Of a stretch of DNA of 64,000 nt, positions 56,740-64,000 are shown one piece after another. The notes beneath the pieces are model-generated. The model worked only from the letters and a program-made list of their open reading frames with translations. It made no database searches and had not been told where the DNA came from. The position numbers were made by a program, and so were the translations under genes. Each line of letters starts with the position of its first letter. The stretch's first letter is position 1. This DNA comes from Sphingopyxis macrogoltabida (GTDB taxonomy: Bacteria > Pseudomonadota > Alphaproteobacteria > Sphingomonadales > Sphingomonadaceae), in the NCBI RefSeq assembly GCF_001314325.1, contig NZ_CP009429.1:1736501-1800500 (forward strand), written 5' to 3'.

Positions 56740-57081
56740 ATGGCCAAGCATAGCACTTCCAAGAGATCCTCGTCCGACGGCAAGTTTGTCGCAATCAAAG
56801 GAGTCTCCGGACAACGGAATGTGACGACGCGTCTGGGCAATGTTACCGTAAGCGGACGGCGGCCGAGCGCCGATGTTGTAAGTTCGAATGTGGCCGCCAG
56901 CACAGCAGCTTTGGAGCGCGTCGGAACCAAATTGACCAAGCCTGGCGTCCGTCTCCCGCAGAAGAAGGGTGTGCCGCGCTATTCCGCCGACGAGAATAAC
57001 CCCGGCGTTTTCATTCGGCGGCTGGACGGGAAGGTCACGACAGGCAAGCTTCAAAACGGTCAGTTCGTCGAAACTAAGTGA
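56740..57081 (+). CDS. Unknown basic protein, likely partner of the zeta toxin
   Basis: 113 residues from MAKHSTSKRSSS. Ser/Lys/Arg-rich start, a middle with VTTRLGNVTVSGRRPSADVV, and a C terminus GVFIRRLDGKVTTGKLQNGQ. It does not look like the three-helix epsilon or PezA antitoxins. Its end overlaps the zeta toxin gene by four bases, the position of an antitoxin. A TATATT sequence about 12 bases upstream of the start could be part of the promoter. Confidence 0.65.
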   Translation: MAKHSTSKRSSSDGKFVAIKGVSGQRNVTTRLGNVTVSGRRPSADVVSSNVAASTAALERVGTKLTKPGVRLPQKKGVPRYSADENNPGVFIRRLDGKVTTGKLQNGQFVETK

Positions 57082-57818
57082 CCCAGCTTAGCGCCGCGGT
57101 CGAGCAAATCCTCGACGCCCAAAAGCGAACGAAGAAGCCGCTGGCGATTATCTTGGCGGGCCACAATGGTTCCGGAAAATCGACCATGTGGCGCAAATCG
57201 CTTTCGGGGCAATTGCAAATCCCTCTTCTCAACGCCGACCGCATGATGCTGTCGATTCTTCCAGAGGCGGACAGCAGTGGCGCGCTTGTCGATTGGGCTC
57301 AGGCTCTGCGCGACACCGATCTTGGTTGGATGCAGGTTGCACAGTCCGGCGTGAAGGCCTTTGCGGCGCATGCCATGGCGGCGAAGGTACCATTTGCTAT
57401 GGAGACAGTCTTTTCTCACTGGGATATCCAGGAGGATGGCACTGTTAAATCTAAGATCGACCTAATCACCGACTTGCAGGATGCCGGTTACTTCGTCTTG
57501 CTGTTATTTGTGGGTCTTGCAAATGTAGATCTGTCCGTTCTGCGTGTGATGTCGAGAGTAGCGGATAATGGGCACAACGTGCCGCAGGACAAATTGGTCC
57601 AGAGGTTTCCTCGGACGCAGCTCGCCATTCGTGAAGCCGCGAAGGTCGCGGACGCGACAATCTTCACCGACAATAGCAGAGACGAGAAGCGGGCCTTTAC
57701 CGTATCTCGCGTTCAACTGGGCGAGGAGGCGATCTTTGACTTGCGCGCGGAAGGTCGCATTGTTGCGCCCGTCATTTTGGAATGGCTCGAGAAAGTCAGT
57801 CCGGTCGATGTCCCCTAG
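57078..57818 (+). CDS. Zeta-toxin family kinase
   Basis: 246 residues from a GTG overlapping the previous stop. Walker A GHNGSGKST at about residues 28-36, NADRM at about 52-56 and METVFSH carry the ATP and substrate residues of zeta toxins, which phosphorylate UDP-N-acetylglucosamine and block cell wall synthesis. The C-terminal half (LLLFVGLANVDLSVLRV, RFPRTQLAIREAAKVAD) follows the usual zeta-type layout. A role as a toxin depends on the unrecognised first gene being its antitoxin. Confidence 0.85.
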   Translation: MTQLSAAVEQILDAQKRTKKPLAIILAGHNGSGKSTMWRKSLSGQLQIPLLNADRMMLSILPEADSSGALVDWAQALRDTDLGWMQVAQSGVKAFAAHAMAAKVPFAMETVFSHWDIQEDGTVKSKIDLITDLQDAGYFVLLLFVGLANVDLSVLRVMSRVADNGHNVPQDKLVQRFPRTQLAIREAAKVADATIFTDNSRDEKRAFTVSRVQLGEEAIFDLRAEGRIVAPVILEWLEKVSPVDVP

Positions 57819-58182: not shown

Positions 58183-58214
58183 TGACGTGACCCCCTGGTT
58201 TCCACCAGCCGGGA

Positions 58215-58863
58215 TTAGAGCCCAGCAGCTTTGTTGCGCATGAGCGCGGTGTAAGCAATGGCCTGCGCAGCGGAGCCCGAAGGGCGTAGCTGCGCAGGCC
58301 ATTGCTTATGCAGTTCGGCGGCGAACGCCGCCGGTGTCTCATATCCAAGTGCCGAGTGCGGCCGCGACTGGTTGTAATCTTCGGCCCAGGCCGCGATCAC
58401 TGTGCGGGCATGGTCGAGGTCGAGGAACAGCGTCTCGTTCAGAAGCTCATCACGCATCCGGCCATTGAAGCTCTCGACATAGCCGTTCTGCATCGGCTTG
58501 CCGGGTGCGATATAATGCCACTCGACGCCGACCTCACCGCACCATGCGAGCACCGCGTTCGATGTCAGCTCGGTCCCGTTGTCGCTGACGATCATCCCCG
58601 GCCTGCCGCGTTCCTCGATCAGATCGCTGAGCTCGCGCACGACCCGGCGCCCGGAGATCGACGTGTCGGGCACCGCGCGCAGGCACTCCCGCGTCACGTC
58701 GTCGACGATGTTGAGCACCCGGAACCGCCGGCCTGACGCCATCTGATCATGCACGAAGTCGAGGCTCCACCGCTGGTTCGGTAGCGCCAGCACCGGTGCG
58801 GGCGCCCGAGCACCGATCGCCCGGCGCCGGTTACGTCTTCGTCGGACCATCAGTCCTTCCTCC
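58215..58863 (-). pseudogene. 3' part of orfB of the outer IS3-family element
   Basis: Integrase core of the rve type: [20 protein letters not shown] (first D), [14 protein letters not shown] (second D) and [18 protein letters not shown] (catalytic E), ending NKAAGL. It is separated from its 5' part (60143-60411) by the inner element. Joining across one copy of CTCC gives the continuous frame [14 protein letters not shown], which is the normal sequence of such transposases. Confidence 0.9.
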
Positions 58864-58897
58864 TGGTCTGCCCCCACCGAGTGGACCGATTGGTTTG

Positions 58898-59806
58898 TTA
58901 GTGCATTAAGCTCATCGCCGCCATATCCGGACGGAGGTGGAGCGAAGCGGAACCGGAGGCCGGATATGGCGGTGTCGCCGTTTCCGGTGCCGGTGGCCGG
59001 TAGCCCAAGCTGCTATGCGGGCGGACGGTGTTGTAATGCCGCCGCCATGCCTCGATCAGCACCCTGGCCTCGGCGAGGCTGTAGAAGATCTCGCCATTGA
59101 GCAGTTCGTCGCGAAGCGACCCGTTGAAGCTTTCGTTATAGCCATTTTCCCATGGTGATCCCGGCGCGATATAGAGGGTCTTTACGCCGATCTGCCCCAG
59201 CCATTTCTGGACGGCGGTCGCGATAAACTCGCTACCATTATCGGATCGTATATGCGCTGGCGGCCCACGCGAGATGAACAGGTCGGCCAGGGCCGCCAGA
59301 ACATCCTCATGCTTGAGTTGCCGTGCAACGATGAGCGCCAGGCATTCCCTGCTGGCCTCGTCGATGATCGTGAGGATGCGGAACTTGCGACCGTCATGCG
59401 TCCGCCCCTCGACGAAATCGTAGGCCCAGACATGCCCCGGATATTCGGGGCGTAGCCGGATGCACGATCCGTCATTGAGCCATAGACGCCCGCGCTTTGG
59501 CTGGCGCTGCGGGACTTTCAGTCCTTCACGCCGCCATATCCGCTCGACACGTTTATGGTTCACCGTCCATCCCGCATGGCACAGCAACGCCGTGACCCGG
59601 CGGTAGCCGTAACGACCATATTGCTTCGCCAATGCAATGATGTCCTCGGTCAGTGCCTGTTCGTCATCCGCCCCGCGCGGCATCTTGCGCTGCGTCGATC
59701 GATGCTGACCCAGCACCCGGCATATCCGTCGCTCGGATACCCGGACTGGCAGATCCCGTCGTACCTGATCGATGCAGCGCCGCCGCCGCGCGGGGCTCAG
59801 AAGTTT
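58898..59806 (-). CDS. orfB of the inner IS3-family element (transposase catalytic part)
   Basis: About 302 residues, expressed as an OrfAB fusion by -1 frameshifting at 59803-59809. The HTH_21 region ([19 protein letters not shown]) precedes the rve core with [19 protein letters not shown] (first D), [15 protein letters not shown] (second D) and [19 protein letters not shown] (catalytic E). It appears intact. Confidence 0.92.
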
Positions 59807-60075
59807 CCCCGTGCAGCCTCCTGCAAGATCAGCTTGTCCAAGGTCAGGTCCGAGATCGCCCGGCGCAGCCGCTGGTTCTCCTTCTCCAGATCCTTCATCC
59901 GCCGCGCCTGGTCGGTCTTCAGGCCGCCATACTCCTTGCGCCACCGATAATAGGTCTGCTCGCTGACCGCGATCCGGCGACAGGCTTCAGCCGTGCTCGC
60001 TCCCTGCGCCAGCACAATCTCAACTTCACGCAGCTTGCCGATGATCTCTTCCGGCTTGTGCTTCTTGCTCGGCAT
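59797..60075 (-). CDS. orfA of the inner IS3-family element
   Basis: 92 residues. Helix-turn-helix ([21 protein letters not shown]) followed by a leucine-zipper-like coiled coil ([20 protein letters not shown]). Ends just past the slippery sequence GGGAAAC. Confidence 0.92.
59803..59809 (-). other. -1 frameshift site GGGAAAC
   Basis: In the orfA frame the sequence reads CGG GGA AAC, a classic X-XXY-YYZ heptamer, three codons before the orfA stop. The orfB frame continues from it without a stop. Confidence 0.8.
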
Positions 60076-60142
60076 TCAATGTCCCTTTCATGGTCCAGAC
60101 TATCATAGTCTCTGGGCCACTCAGCGGGGGGCAGATCACTCC

Positions 60143-60411
60143 CGATACAGGCGCTGAGTCTTCTTCCTGTTGATCATCACGCCCTCCCGGCGCAGCAGGA
60201 TATGCAGGCGTCGATAACCGAACCGGCGACGCTGCTGCGCCAGCTCGCGCAGCTTCTCCCGAACCTCGGCATCGTCACCACGCTGCGACCGGTAGCGCAT
60301 GCTCTTCCGATCGGCCCCTGTGACACGGCACGCCCGCCGCTCGCTCATCCCATGGCAAGCCTGGAGATGGGCGACCGCTTCCCGCTGAACGGCGGGCGTC
60401 ACCATTTTTTT
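60143..60411 (-). pseudogene. 5' part of orfB of the outer IS3-family element
   Basis: Runs from the frameshift site to the inner insertion: MVTPAVQREAVAHLQACHGM, ERRACRVTGADRKSMRYRS and RRFGYRRLHILLRREGVMIN, the HTH_21 part of IS3-type OrfB, ending RLYRE at the insertion point. The rest lies at 58215-58863. Confidence 0.9.
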
Positions 60412-60665
60412 GTGAGAAGATCCTTCAGCGCCGCATTGTCGAGCATCGAGTCCGCAAGCAGCCGCTTCAGCTTCGCGTTCTCGTCCTCGAGCGAGCGCAG
60501 CCGCTTCGCCTCGGACACCTCCAGGCCGCCATACTTGGCCTTCCAGTTGTAGATCGTTGCTTCCGACACCCCGTGTCGCCGCGCCAGCTCGCCGGTCTTC
60601 GCGCCCGCCTCCGCTTCCTTCAATACCCCGATGATCTGCTCTTCCGAAAACCTCAAACGCTTCAT
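60399..60665 (-). CDS. orfA of the outer IS3-family element
   Basis: 88 residues. Helix-turn-helix (GELARRHGVSEATIYNWKAK) and coiled coil (LEDENAKLKRLLADSMLDN). Near its end the run of seven A bases (AAAAAAA; Ts at 60405-60411 on the plus strand) is a slippery site for the -1 shift into orfB. OrfA alone is intact, but no active transposase can be made by this element. Confidence 0.92.
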   Translation of the reverse strand: MKRLRFSEEQIIGVLKEAEAGAKTGELARRHGVSEATIYNWKAKYGGLEVSEAKRLRSLEDENAKLKRLLADSMLDNAALKDLLTKKW

Positions 60666-60730
60666 CTGTCCGTCCTTCCTTCAAGGCCGGACTCTAATCA
60701 CTGTTGGAGGAAAATCAGGGGGTCACGTCA

Positions 60731-60894
60731 TCGTCCTTAATCTCGTCGGTGATCCGTATGTTGATCGTCTTATAGTCGACAGCTTGCAGCGCATTGGTGA
60801 GCGTTTGAGAGATTGCATCGATATCGATGCCGATGGGGCCCGCGATCCCAAAAACCAATTCAGGGTGTGCAATCGCATTCGGTTCGTCGAACAT
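60731..60894 (-). pseudogene. N-terminal fragment of an anti-phage dCTP deaminase
   Basis: About 55 residues from MFDEPNAIAHPELVFGIAGP. PELVFGIAGPIGIDIDAI, then NALQAVDYKTINIRITDEI, is the P-loop-kinase-like N terminus of AvcD-type deaminases. The gene is cut at 60730 by the right end of the outer IS3-family element; read on, it gains DVTP and stops at 60715. Together with the 57886-58182 fragment it accounts for roughly 150 residues, so the middle, including the deaminase active site, is gone. Confidence 0.8.
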
Positions 60895-60974
60895 TGGTAC
60901 CCTCTTGTATGATTGTGCTGGAAAGGGGATCATAAATCGGGCATCAAATGCGCGCGGCAAATGGGAGGCAAAAA

Positions 60975-61145
60975 ATGACAATCAGAGATCAGCGTACTCT
61001 AGATGTCATAAACGAAGTTTCTCGAACTGCTGATCGTCTTGCTCGTAGAATGGGCGGTCACTACGTTTTGAACAGGGATGTGAGAACGGCATTGGACGAG
61101 CGTCAAGACGTTCGGGCCCGAGCTGACGCGCAACAATTTCGATAA
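60975..61145 (+). CDS. Small hypothetical protein, divergent from the broken deaminase gene
   Basis: 56 residues (MTIRDQRTLD ... ADAQQFR) behind a good GGGAGG ribosome binding site. Charged and helical (LDVINEVSRTADRLARRM; NRDVRTALDERQDVRARAD). No family recognised. Its promoter region of about 80 bases is shared with the deaminase fragment. Confidence 0.55.
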   Translation: MTIRDQRTLDVINEVSRTADRLARRMGGHYVLNRDVRTALDERQDVRARADAQQFR

Positions 61146-61243: not shown

Positions 61244-61642
61244 TTATCTTCGGTAAAATTGCTCAGGCTTATCACTAAGCGATACGCCGCTGTCAGCGCA
61301 CAATTCGATCACACCTCGCCTCACCCAGAAATGCGCGAAGGAACCTACTGTCTGCCTTACCGAAGGGTAGATAGTTGGCCGACCGAGAAAATCCCATTTA
61401 ACCCGCCAGCAAGGTCTATGATTCCGCATCAACGATAACTGGATAATCTCCGTCTGATCCTCTGGGCAACGGAAATAGGCCCATTTCTGAAAATCCCGAC
61501 CACCCACTACGTAAACAAATCCATCCTTGATCTCATCGTCCATCGGATGTTCATTCACCAGGCAAACCAGAAGTTGTGGCCTTGAAATGATTCCAAGAAA
61601 AATCAGAAGTCGGCGGGTTAGCTTTATCATCGTGGTCTGCAT
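61244..61642 (-). CDS. DUF6527 protein of the ubiquitin-like operon
   Basis: 132 residues from the ATG at 61642; a TTG two codons earlier overlaps the E1 stop. A hydrophobic or basic start (IKLTRRLLIFLGIISRPQLL) precedes the DUF6527 core: GRDFQKWAYFRCPEDQTEII, then RPCWRVKWDFLGRPTIYPSV and FAHFWVRRGVIELC. Most members have a G-C-x-S-H-F motif before the W; here it reads GSFAHFW, so one Cys of the likely metal site is replaced. DUF6527 genes recur at the end of bacterial ubiquitin-like operons; their biochemical role is not settled here. Confidence 0.75.
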   Translation of the reverse strand: MQTTMIKLTRRLLIFLGIISRPQLLVCLVNEHPMDDEIKDGFVYVVGGRDFQKWAYFRCPEDQTEIIQLSLMRNHRPCWRVKWDFLGRPTIYPSVRQTVGSFAHFWVRRGVIELCADSGVSLSDKPEQFYRR

Positions 61643-61644
61643 GT

Positions 61645-63066
61645 TCAACCAACCCGGCCGATAAACGGATCCGCATCCCCTCGGCCCCAGAGGCCGTCAT
61701 CATCGCAGATGCGGCAACCCGTCCTCGGACGATAGCCGGGACGACGATCTTCGCAGAGATGGAACTTGCGAACCCGGTTTGCCGCGCTTCCCTCCAATTT
61801 CCGAAACCCCACCATCCTCTGCAGCAGCTCGTTAACCGCCATACAGGCGACCTCGGTGGTGAAGGTGACTACAGCCGGAGCTGGATTTCCTTCGCCGACA
61901 ACATACGCTTCTCTCTTTTGCTTTTCATAATCATCTGGATTTTGGCGCTTCAAAGCTTCCGCGCGTGCAATTTCGGGATCGACGAGTCCGCTACATACCA
62001 GACACGGATTTTCAGGCCCGAGCACACTTACTCGACCATCCATTGCCTCGATCTCGGGCGGATCTCCGTCTGAAACATCGATCGCAAGGCCCATATCTAC
62101 TACCGGAACAAGATAGTAGTAAGCGAACCGGTTCAAAAACATACGGCCATCGTGATCGTCGGTGCAGCCGAAAATTACATCGCATGATCGGAGTGCATCA
62201 CGATTCTCCTTCGCACCGATCCATTCTTCGAAAGGCAATACCCTTACGCCCAGCCCCATTTGTGCAATATGAGCCGCGACGACGTTGACTTTGGAGTTCA
62301 TACCATCGGCGTCGCACTGCGTGGCTCCGTGAAGCCGATTGAGATTACTGGCCTCGACGATATCGTTGTCGAACAGTGCGATTTGTCCAACGCCGAGCCT
62401 CGCAAGTAACATGGCAAGGGCGCTGCCGGTGCCGCCGCAACCTACCACACCGACACGCATCCGCTTGAGATCACTATTGAGTGCATTCCCGAACGCCAAT
62501 GCCTGGCGCGCTAGAACCGTAGAAGATTGGGCCGGGTCGGTGTCGGCAAACCAAAACCGAAGATCGCTTCCCCACGCCCGGATTGCGCGCAATTTTTCCC
62601 AACCCTTGTTAGCGGGACGCAGCCACACTCGCCCAAAAAGCTGGTTCTCGCCAGCGAGAACCAGGCTAATCAATTTTGTGCCGGGACCATTGCGATTGAC
62701 AGCGAGTTGAGCAAGGTCTTGCTCGTTTTCATCGTCCTGGCCCGAAAACTCGGCGAAACCGGACGGATGAGAGTGGACGATGGCCACGATGTGATTATTC
62801 GCCTCGGCATCACGCAGAGCCCTCACATAGGAGTCCGTGAGCCAGCTAACATGAGTGCCGTCCGCGCTTACGATATCCTCGGGCGGAATCTCGCGAACGT
62901 TCACGGATAGGAACTTCTCGTGTGACTCCCGATCCCACGGATCGCGTTGAATATCGGCAGAACTGAAAAACACGTACGCCGCATGCTCCTTGCCGTCATC
63001 GTGGCGGAGTAACGATTTCAGGCGCTCGAGATGCCGTTGTTGTAGTGTGGCACTGTACTGGGTCAT
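61645..63066 (-). CDS. JAB-E1 fusion: Ubl protease and activating enzyme
   Basis: 473 residues. Residues about 20-160 form a JAB/MPN metalloprotease domain with H98-S-H100-PSG and D111/D112, the ligands expected for a Ubl-removing or -maturing isopeptidase. Residues about 200-450 form a ThiF/E1 adenylation domain: nucleotide loop VGCGGTGSALA (208-217), FDNDIVEASNLNR with D235, N241 and R244, and a zinc site C355-x2-C358 with C451-x2-C454. C408 (EVACMAVNEL) is one candidate for the thioester cysteine. It overlaps the E2-like gene by four bases. Confidence 0.92.
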   Translation of the reverse strand: MTQYSATLQQRHLERLKSLLRHDDGKEHAAYVFFSSADIQRDPWDRESHEKFLSVNVREIPPEDIVSADGTHVSWLTDSYVRALRDAEANNHIVAIVHSHPSGFAEFSGQDDENEQDLAQLAVNRNGPGTKLISLVLAGENQLFGRVWLRPANKGWEKLRAIRAWGSDLRFWFADTDPAQSSTVLARQALAFGNALNSDLKRMRVGVVGCGGTGSALAMLLARLGVGQIALFDNDIVEASNLNRLHGATQCDADGMNSKVNVVAAHIAQMGLGVRVLPFEEWIGAKENRDALRSCDVIFGCTDDHDGRMFLNRFAYYYLVPVVDMGLAIDVSDGDPPEIEAMDGRVSVLGPENPCLVCSGLVDPEIARAEALKRQNPDDYEKQKREAYVVGEGNPAPAVVTFTTEVACMAVNELLQRMVGFRKLEGSAANRVRKFHLCEDRRPGYRPRTGCRICDDDGLWGRGDADPFIGRVG

Positions 63067-63443
63067 GCGGCAACCAATAGGGCGTGCTCAACACGCTTGA
63101 GCATCGTCCAAATGCCGTCGATGCCAGGCCGCCAATCGTCACAATGGCGTGACCAGCGCTGCCAATTCTGGCCATTAAATATTACGGGTTGGTCCGCCGC
63201 GTTTGGATATTTGTTCCCAGTCCTCAGTTTCACCCAAGGGATCAGGTGGAACATGTCCGGCCGAACGTCAGGATATCCGTTAGGTATGAGGATGAGGACA
63301 TCCGCTCGCTCCGCGTCATACATCCCATCAGGTAATAGCCAGCCGCGAATGATAACGGCATTAGCATTCCCCTCCGTGAGTTCTTCGAAGCTAGTGCCCC
63401 TTGCTTGAAGGTACTCTAAATCCTCTGGCGGCAGAAAGCTCAT
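63063..63443 (-). CDS. E2-like ubiquitin-conjugating protein (prokaryotic E2 family E)
   Basis: 126 residues. The central strands (ADVLILIPNGYPDVRPDMFH) and the block NWQRWSRHCDDWRPGIDGIW follow the prokaryotic E2 family E layout. C101 is the only cysteine in the protein and sits right after the conserved S-R-H, so it is the sole candidate for carrying a Ubl thioester. The start follows the Ubl stop directly and its stop overlaps the E1 start. Confidence 0.85.
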   Translation of the reverse strand: MSFLPPEDLEYLQARGTSFEELTEGNANAVIIRGWLLPDGMYDAERADVLILIPNGYPDVRPDMFHLIPWVKLRTGNKYPNAADQPVIFNGQNWQRWSRHCDDWRPGIDGIWTMLKRVEHALLVAA

Positions 63444-63689
63444 TCAGCCCTCCGTGGAAGTTTTCTTGCCGGTGAAAAATTTTTCAACGCCGGGCTGGGT
63501 GAGGTCAACGGATTGGTCATCCGCAATGGGGAGGTCTTCCGGTCCTGCGACGTCTTGCCAGACATTATAATTGGCAACGTCCACGCCGGCGAGATTTTTG
63601 ATCTGCAGCCCGGTGATGGTGTCCTGGCTCCAGTCGTACTTTTTACGGTCGATAAAGATGTGGTCGGGCTTGTTAGGCTTGTTCGCCAT
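63444..63689 (-). CDS. Ubiquitin-like protein (multiubiquitin type, single domain)
   Basis: 81 residues. One beta-grasp-like domain: FIDRKKYDWSQDTITGLQIK, LAGVDVANYNVW, then DDQSVDLTQPGVEKFFTG. This matches the multiubiquitin domain pattern (an ITGxQI motif and a terminal K-F-F-T). The tail is KKTSTEG, ending in a single glycine and not Gly-Gly, so the conjugating end is either this Gly or is made by trimming. Most relatives carry several repeats; here there is only one. Confidence 0.85.
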   Translation of the reverse strand: MANKPNKPDHIFIDRKKYDWSQDTITGLQIKNLAGVDVANYNVWQDVAGPEDLPIADDQSVDLTQPGVEKFFTGKKTSTEG

Positions 63690-63704
63690 CGAAGTTCTCC
63701 TGTT

Positions 63705-63938
63705 TCAGCCTTTGGGGGGAAGGGGGTCGTTGCCGTGGCTGTCGCTACTTGCGATCCGGCCGTCACGATTGTGAATGCGAAATTCGGTTGACTGATTACG
63801 GCTGATCTCGCGGCCCCGATCGATCGCCTCGCGCTTCGTGTCGTGATGGCTGCTCGCGCGAGCGCCACCACCACGTTTCACATCCCATCCGCCATCCGGG
63901 TTGGGCACCACATGATGAGTCTTTGGTCCTTTGGGCAT
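63705..63938 (-). CDS. DUF2188 small protein
   Basis: 77 residues from MPKGPKTHHVVPN, with GGAG seven bases before the start; ATGs at 63950 and 63953 are alternatives. THHVVPNPDGGWDVKRGG is the typical opening of DUF2188, and TKREAIDRGREISRNQSTEF, then IHNRDGRIASSDSHGNDP, completes it. Short proteins of this family often sit beside the ubiquitin-like operons and other defence genes. It is the first gene of the operon as seen in the window and starts 15 bases before the Ubl gene. Confidence 0.85.
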   Translation of the reverse strand: MPKGPKTHHVVPNPDGGWDVKRGGGARASSHHDTKREAIDRGREISRNQSTEFRIHNRDGRIASSDSHGNDPLPPKG

Positions 63939-64000
63939 CTTGTTCTCCATCACTGAAATCCGTTATTCTGCGAATCCGCTAATTAGCGTACTTCGATTTA

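Follow-up and report, generated by a model that had tools for sequence, protein, structure and literature searches.

A Bub operon of Sphingopyxis macrogoltabida with a CapH-CapP-like gene pair in front and a predicted operator repeated at two promoters

We analysed a 64,000-nucleotide stretch of the Sphingopyxis macrogoltabida genome (the window; contig NZ_CP009429.1, positions 1,736,501 to 1,800,500), the end of which carries genes for a ubiquitin-like protein (Ubl), an E2-like protein, an E1 fused to a JAB domain, and two further proteins with the domains DUF2188 and DUF6527. By sequence comparison, this locus belongs to the Bub (bacterial ubiquitination-like) operons of known kind, and is a lineage variant of them, with a DUF6527 protein deprived of two metal-type ligands and a front end made of CapH, CapP and DUF2188. 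What is new here is the CapH-CapP-like pair found beyond the window edge, together with an operator shared by the regions before capH and before DUF2188. We consider it likely that these genes form a seven-gene Bub operon, inducible in the manner of a DNA-damage response, in which conjugation would be centred on S98 of the E2-like protein.

Our stretch is part of a 5.17-Mb contig, in a genome of 5.75 Mb and 3 contigs; hereafter L-numbers designate loci and P-numbers protein sequences, G000:C1 coordinates are those of the contig and window numbers those of the 64-kb stretch. An earlier note on this DNA had described a ubiquitin-like operon of five genes on one strand, comprising a modifier, an E2-like protein, an E1-JAB enzyme and accessory genes. 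The five open reading frames (ORFs) are indeed intact and tightly packed on the minus strand, with spacings from -4 to 15 nt; the parts list is correct by Pfam domains, and all five proteins, including the Ubl (Multi_ubiq) and the E2 (Prok-E2_E), exceed the curated Pfam cut-off. The Bub transcription unit opens with a gene (63705..63953) for an 82-aa DUF2188 protein (Pfam 6e-25) of the PADLOC PDC-S16 subfamily (4e-37). It is followed after 15 nt by the BubA-like Ubl (63444..63689; 81 aa, one Multi_ubiq domain, Pfam 1e-17), which ends in STEG-COOH, then with 0 nt between them by the BubB-like E2 (63063..63443; 126 aa, Prok-E2_E 4e-46, Citrobacter BubB 9eae_C 7e-15). The latter overlaps by 4 nt the gene of a BubCD-like chain of 473 aa (61645..63066), with an N-terminal JAB (Prok-JAB 1.5e-9) and a C-terminal ThiF E1 (ThiF 1e-41, BubCD 9ea4_A 6e-41). 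The DUF6527 gene comes last (61244..61648, Pfam 5e-15), either with a TTG start at 61648 and a 4-nt overlap with the E1 gene, or with an ATG start at 61642 and a 2-nt gap. It is the boundary at five genes that did not hold: upstream of DUF2188, past the window end, an M78-peptidase gene and then a helix-turn-helix (HTH) gene extend the operon, so that the complete order is capH, capP, DUF2188, Ubl, E2, JAB-E1, DUF6527. The identical order is found in L004, L005 and the Rhizobium phaseoli plasmid locus L013; L004, from a Sphingopyxis metagenome-assembled genome, is nearly identical to our locus (99.2% over window 60731-65259).

The two Citrobacter proteins quoted above are the nearest solved proteins to the E1 and the E2, and in a PDB search the Ubl resembles solved multi-ubiquitin proteins. 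All the components of a Bub operon are there: a Multi_ubiq-type Ubl with a terminal Gly, a Prok-E2_E gene of the BubB family, a BubCD-related E1 with the JAB and its E, H, H, S and D in the same chain, and a downstream DUF6527 gene, which an iterated profile search, partly trained on the loci it was run against, detected in 55/55 loci (53 distinct). The Citrobacter Bub (PDB 9ea4, 9ea5, 9ea8, 9eae and 9eav; 9d59 matches the same Ubl) is the closest solved system, and shares with the window the Ubl and its Gly end, the WSRH E2 and the single JAB-E1 chain. Its BubB has no Cys at the place matching C101 of our E2. The window Ubl, unlike that of the Citrobacter type, is a single stand-alone domain ending in TEG. 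In L085 of Leclercia, a close relative of the Citrobacter Bub, a three-domain Ubl is fused to the E2 through an NNG-E joint, the E1 has no CxxC pair, and a hypothetical gene and a winged-HTH gene stand upstream where the window has DUF2188 and CapH-CapP.

The layout itself has been known since 2006 as operon type 6e. The passage of PMC1779556 on this type gives a JAB mostly fused to the E1 N-terminus, 1-3 Ub-like repeats, an E2-like domain that lacks the Cys and was taken to be inactive, and a zinc-finger-like, metal-binding protein with a C-x3-C signature. The window compares well with it for the JAB-E1 fusion, the Ub-like repeat, the E2-like domain lacking a conserved Cys and the last protein; however, the C-x3-C signature is broken in the window DUF6527, the last pair is C-x2-H in the intact loci here and H-x2-C as printed in that passage, and DUF2188 and CapH-CapP are absent from it. 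Two plasmid loci are also instructive. L013 (NZ_CP013545) resembles the window in its gene order, its E1 (60% identical) and an exact operator before DUF2188, but has Asn at E2 position 101 and a variant of the palindrome at capH. In L016 of Synechocystis sp. PCC 6803 (pSYSX, NC_005232) HTH, ImmA, Ubl, E2, JAB-E1 and DUF6527 genes and the TEG end are present as in the window, but the Ubl has two domains, the regulators are divergent and the DUF6527 Cys pair is intact; DUF2188 was neither annotated nor found in this locus.

In Type II CBASS, Cap2 unites E1 and E2 in one chain, whereas the window has them as separate genes, and its E1 matches Cap2 at 5e-6, far more weakly than BubCD. The window Ubl matches BilA of the Bil system (8u38) at 4e-11, but for the E1 and the E2 the matches are to BubCD and BubB, and no Bil-named chain is among those listed. 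A metabolic pathway with a sulphur carrier of the ThiS/ThiF type could be read from the ThiF fold and from NCBIfam ThiF and MoeB matches that are far under their cut-offs; it appears extremely improbable given the E2-like gene, the JAB, the best matches to Bub and the lack of any metabolic gene among the five. In a Nostoc plasmid (L014:7245-10259), a Bub operon is followed by annotated nucleotidyltransferase and SAVED genes, that is, Bub stands beside CBASS-like genes.

The capP-like gene (G000:C1:1800543-1801262, window numbering 64043-64762, minus strand) encodes a 239-aa M78 metallopeptidase with the motif HEYGH (Pfam Peptidase_M78 7e-5; PADLOC capP 1.7e-7), and the capH-like gene (G000:C1:1801272-1801598, window numbering 64772-65098, minus strand) a 108-aa helix-turn-helix protein (Pfam HTH_3 3e-10; PADLOC capH 4e-6), which the PADLOC model HTH_VI scores better (1e-10). 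As in CBASS and other immune operons with CapH-CapP, an HTH gene followed by an M78 gene with HExxH adjoins an immune-type operon; unlike the known pairs, this one is co-directional and upstream, has predicted operators at two promoters and scores weakly with PADLOC. Our CapH and CapP share 65% and 64% identity with their counterparts in L013 and are thus R. phaseoli-like. By Pfam, the window genome contains 5 M78 genes altogether. Of the 24 plasmid loci examined, 15 have an annotated ImmA/IrrE gene close to Bub. A count of 544 Bub operons, 219 of them with CapW or with CapH and CapP, is given in the Bub passages of PMC13373217 (EMBO J 2026), which also state that in other CapH-CapP pairs CapP, activated by single-stranded DNA, cleaves CapH and so relieves repression.

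A perfect 16-bp palindrome, TACGCTAATTAGCGTA, lies 23-38 bp before the capH start (G000:C1:1801621-1801636, window numbering 65121-65136), and a second copy, with the core palindrome CGCTAATTAGCG, just upstream of DUF2188 (63975..63990). With at most one mismatch, the 14-base operator pattern occurs genome-wide at these two places only (4 matches, both strands at each), and it was never found in 200 shuffles of the 20-kb L002; the case for an operator is nevertheless its position, its palindromy and its recurrence in relatives, not its rarity. Both copies are present in L004 and L005, as against neither in L006 and L007, whose M78 genes are different and divergent (L007 also shows an HTH gene). 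By eye, each copy overlaps the -10 of a promoter of the form TTG-16/17-TACGCT. An exact, predicted two-site operator can thus be offered for the CapH-like repressor.

We infer repression, conjugation, an acceptor role of Ser98 and an immune purpose along the following lines. CapH would occupy both operators, at its own promoter and at that of DUF2188, and repress both; CapP, activated by single-stranded DNA as in the characterised CapH-CapP pairs, would cut CapH and turn the locus on. The Ubl would be synthesised already mature with its TEG end, needing no trimming, and its terminal Gly would be adenylated by the ThiF domain. The E2-like protein would take the Ubl at or near the invariant W-S-R-H, on Ser98 rather than Cys101; the Ubl would then be joined to target proteins and removed from them by the fused JAB, DUF6527 and DUF2188 being presumed accessories. 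Phage defence by this operon is plausible as a putative role. Several points weigh against this scheme. The mechanism is drawn here from sequence, the choice of S98 is drawn from conservation, and the 2006 analysis held the E2-like domains, lacking Cys, for probably inactive (type 6e passage of PMC1779556). The capP and capH matches to the PADLOC models are weak; the reversed control pattern with the same one mismatch has 3 genome matches against 4 for the operator, so that rarity alone is not significant; and both proposed promoters escaped a consensus scan owing to their poor -10 (TACGCT).

The earlier note had singled out an E2 with one cysteine, C101, as if catalytic. C101 is indeed the sole Cys of the window E2, three residues past S98, but its catalytic role is not borne out. 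In a set of 121 close homologues (the window E2 and 120 listed of 534 matches), residue 101 is Cys in 29, Asn in 86, Ser in 4 and Ala in 2; Cys prevails among the very closest homologues, and among 52 loci it is found in five, the window and L004-L007 only. By contrast S98 is present in 121/121 of these listed E2s and in 46/52 loci, and the E2s have a long invariant WQRWSRH...W motif. The conserved active-site Cys of a canonical E2 is thus not found, and C101 is a poor candidate nucleophile since it is not conserved while S98 is invariant. A canonical scheme, where the Ubl would form a thioester on C101 before passing to lysines of phage or host proteins, could take advantage of the vicinity of S98 and of the conservation of C101 in the nearest loci; we judge it decidedly unlikely in view of the 86 listed homologues with Asn and of the Citrobacter BubB. 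C101 as catalytic Cys is probably wrong and, judging from the alignments, C101 is a lineage feature; we propose S98 as the candidate Ubl acceptor, and S98, not C101, becomes the residue to test in this class of E2. Oxyesters may feature in work on Bub, which we do not use as evidence.

The six remaining loci (L075-L079 and L087) have a different class of E2, with a W-F-S-W-H motif and a Cys64 in 6/6, which may use a different chemistry. Their Ubl ends in FG, and they form one group on the E1 tree.

For the JAB-E1 chain, conservation was counted over the same 52 loci. The window has the JAB residues E27, H98, H100, S108 and D111, each of them kept in 51/52 loci. In the ThiF part, R244, K259, C301, D303, R308, D324 and G326 are invariant (52/52), C355 and C358 are found in 31/52 and 30/52 loci respectively, and the stretch 386-411 contains no conserved Cys. 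That the JAB is within the E1 chain had been noticed correctly but taken as unusual: it is also the case of the Citrobacter BubCD, and since the JAB of type 6e is mostly fused to the E1 N-terminus, the fusion is the rule of the class. The invariance of C301 has another bearing. The E2-like protein might be a dead adaptor that only positions the Ubl, with the E1 adenylate going directly to the target, or else to a further group on the E1 itself. Besides C301, the main E2 class without a conserved Cys speaks for this, as does the inactivity already proposed in 2006; on the other hand, such a long invariant motif suggests more than an adaptor surface. C301 is moreover close to D303, in a stretch that we take to be structural in ThiF and MoeB proteins. 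We hold a dead adaptor for rather unlikely. Novosphingopyxis baekryungensis (L008) has only the last third of a related JAB-E1 with an apparently broken DUF6527, as a decaying copy would.

The single repeat and the TEG end without Gly-Gly, both announced by the earlier note, are present; the end is not unusual, TEG being the exact C-terminus in 30 of the 31 protein clusters near the window Ubl (the remaining one ends in RVR). In a census of 53 distinct loci, stand-alone Ubls have TEG in 19 loci (14 end there and 5 continue for 2-8 residues), FG in 6 (3 ending there) and SPG in one; the joint of the 26 Ubl-E2 fusions is TEG in 13, NG-E in 11, TAG in 1 and REG in 1; L008 has no Ubl or E2, and the Ubl of L018 and L021 is split across ORFs. 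Besides, the Citrobacter BubA constructs stop at NNG and the BubB chain 9eae_C starts at the following residue. From the conserved TEG end, the fusion joints and this Citrobacter boundary, it is very likely the Gly of TEG that becomes conjugated, TEG being the conserved mature end of the Ubl. As it is encoded at the very end of the window Ubl, the JAB is therefore unnecessary for maturation.

One locus, L065, has a degenerate JAB motif, with R, Q, T and I replacing H, H, S and D, and its Ubl already ends in TTEG. A tie between JAB integrity and Ubl trimming was considered and set aside: L065 is the lone JAB-dead locus of 52 and needs no trimming, but 17/52 Ubls are in the same situation, and one case proves nothing.

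The DUF6527 protein had been said to miss one expected Cys. A loss is confirmed, but it concerns two of the expected zinc-type positions (C-x3-C and C-x2-H, i.e. C61, C65, C103 and H106). C61 is kept in 53/53 loci, S96 and H106 in all 52 that are readable, and C65 and C103 are both present in 46/53; both are changed in six, L002, L004, L005, L006, L007 and L013, where the zinc-type site is thus incomplete, and L008 is degraded with position 103 unreadable. Among the 56 closest DUF6527s (window and 55 matches), 55 are without both Cys and only P0173 has the two; C61 is found in 55, and S96, H106 and C117 in 56. That C61 and H106 were retained after the loss of C65 and C103 may indicate that they do something else than bind zinc. 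The six loci that lost C65 and C103 are also the distinct loci in which a profile search placed DUF2188 upstream of the Ubl, and they form one group on the E1 tree (95/69 support), so that the loss is a single evolutionary event and not a repeated co-loss. In L020 the Cys pair is intact and a diverged DUF2188 lies downstream. By sequence, no PDB relative was found for the window DUF6527, the family profile or the Leclercia protein (one match at E 0.39 was taken as chance), and a keyword search found no literature joining DUF6527 with ubiquitin.

DUF2188 is not restricted to Bub. The PDC-S16 model matches 45/298 genomes of the family and 2/14 control genomes; 30 of 46 matches were listed as loci, and larger regions were taken for 20 of the 27 non-Bub ones. 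Ubl and E2 genes lie within ~1.5 kb of DUF2188 in only 3 of the 30 listed loci, and an exclusive link with Bub was rejected on this count. An M78-profile match was obtained in 15/20 larger regions, 3/3 Bub loci and 1/7 loci viewed at only ~3 kb, and none in the 20-kb L003 from the window genome; of the 9 proteins used to train the profile, 8 came from those 20 regions and one was the window's own, so that 9 of the 19 matches are its own members. Five of the M78 proteins (L126, L134, L139, L140 and L144 = L118) match PADLOC capP at 2e-49 or better. Downstream of or adjacent to DUF2188 we find CBASS cyclases (L136 = L108, L138, L140 = L112), a TRIP13 gene (L137) and a Pycsar cyclase (L134), while L144:3230-4701 contains DUF2188, a small Multi_ubiq Ubl and a DUF6791-ThiF E1 adjoined by strong capH and capP matches (8e-25 and 2e-62), a further Ubl system behind this kind of front end. 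A pair of GTTCGG-type sites with a spacing of 56-57 bp immediately precedes DUF2188 in L007 (Bub), L134 and L137; identity is 51-62% among their CapPs and 69% between the CapHs of L007 and L134. The CapH and CapP in front of our own operon are of a different type.

We thus propose that DUF2188 is tied more closely to the CapH-CapP switch than to Bub. This looks like a portable CapH-CapP-DUF2188 cassette placed before varied immune effectors—Bub, CBASS cyclases, a TRIP13 gene, Pycsar or another Ubl-ThiF pair. DUF2188 would be its third part, for example a licensing or restraining factor at induction, and the cassette-bearing branch of Bub would have lost the DUF6527 metal site; we put this forward tentatively, as quite conceivable. 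Tying DUF2188 to a DNA-damage-type switch of several immune systems nevertheless gives it a concrete functional hypothesis. The capKS passage of PMC13373217 reports 57 cases where a yegP homologue comes after capKS; DUF2188 as a relative of YegP (DUF1508) was rejected, with a hidden Markov model score of 1.2 bits and an hhalign probability of 0.2. As far as titles and abstract openings show, none of the papers that a keyword search found for DUF2188 concerns defence, and such a search found none on PDC-S16.

In four family genomes DUF2188 is followed after 3 nt by a 208-aa unknown protein that begins much as PFERSVFINCPFD (L128:4293-4919, L131:5231-5857, L133:4876-5502, L135:4085-4711), without an M78 match; the two tested (L131, and L098 = L128) have no Pfam or PADLOC match. 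DUF2188 and this protein are a possible two-gene system. L145 = L120 has an AbiP-like gene upstream, and no effector was identified within 100 nt downstream in L126, L127, L129, L130, L132, L139, L141, L142 and L143.

The distribution of the E2 bears on the purpose of the operon. In genome surveys at E 1e-3, the own genome being counted, E2_E matches were found in 5/80 genomes of the genus, 19/397 of the family (19 over cut-off), 4/385 of the class (3 over cut-off) and 9/398 of the phylum (6 over cut-off). Relatives of the E1 (1e-20) are present in 122 of 72,556 plasmid records, 56 of them typed conjugative, and no E2 relative was found in 50,697 phage records. This patchy and partly mobile-element spread is like that of defence genes; it suits defence without proving it. 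The operon could instead be a general modifier of the DNA-damage or stress response without antiviral purpose: control of the CapH-CapP type agrees with this, and the Bub passages of PMC13373217 name this alternative and state that phage protection by Bub operons has not been demonstrated. The patchiness in genus and family, the plasmid copies and a defence gene as neighbour go the other way, and we regard a stress modifier as a possible but somewhat doubtful reading.

This neighbour, outside the Bub operon, is the N-terminal remnant of an anti-phage dCTP deaminase (60715..60981, minus strand; NF041025 1.5e-6, profile 1-43 of 437), so that the intact operon stands, as the earlier note had it, beside a broken defence gene. 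The deaminase gene is interrupted by an IS3-family sequence with 19-nt inverted ends (58183..60730, minus strand), recognised by its transposase domains and inverted repeat and absent from L004; it is probably one element nested in another. At the deaminase gene, a 1,189-bp stretch of L004 is missing from the window, and an intact copy exists in this relative since its gene is a single 578-aa ORF. To the left of the insertion elements, window 57078-57818 carries a zeta-toxin-like P-loop gene (Pfam 2.5e-10), common to L004.

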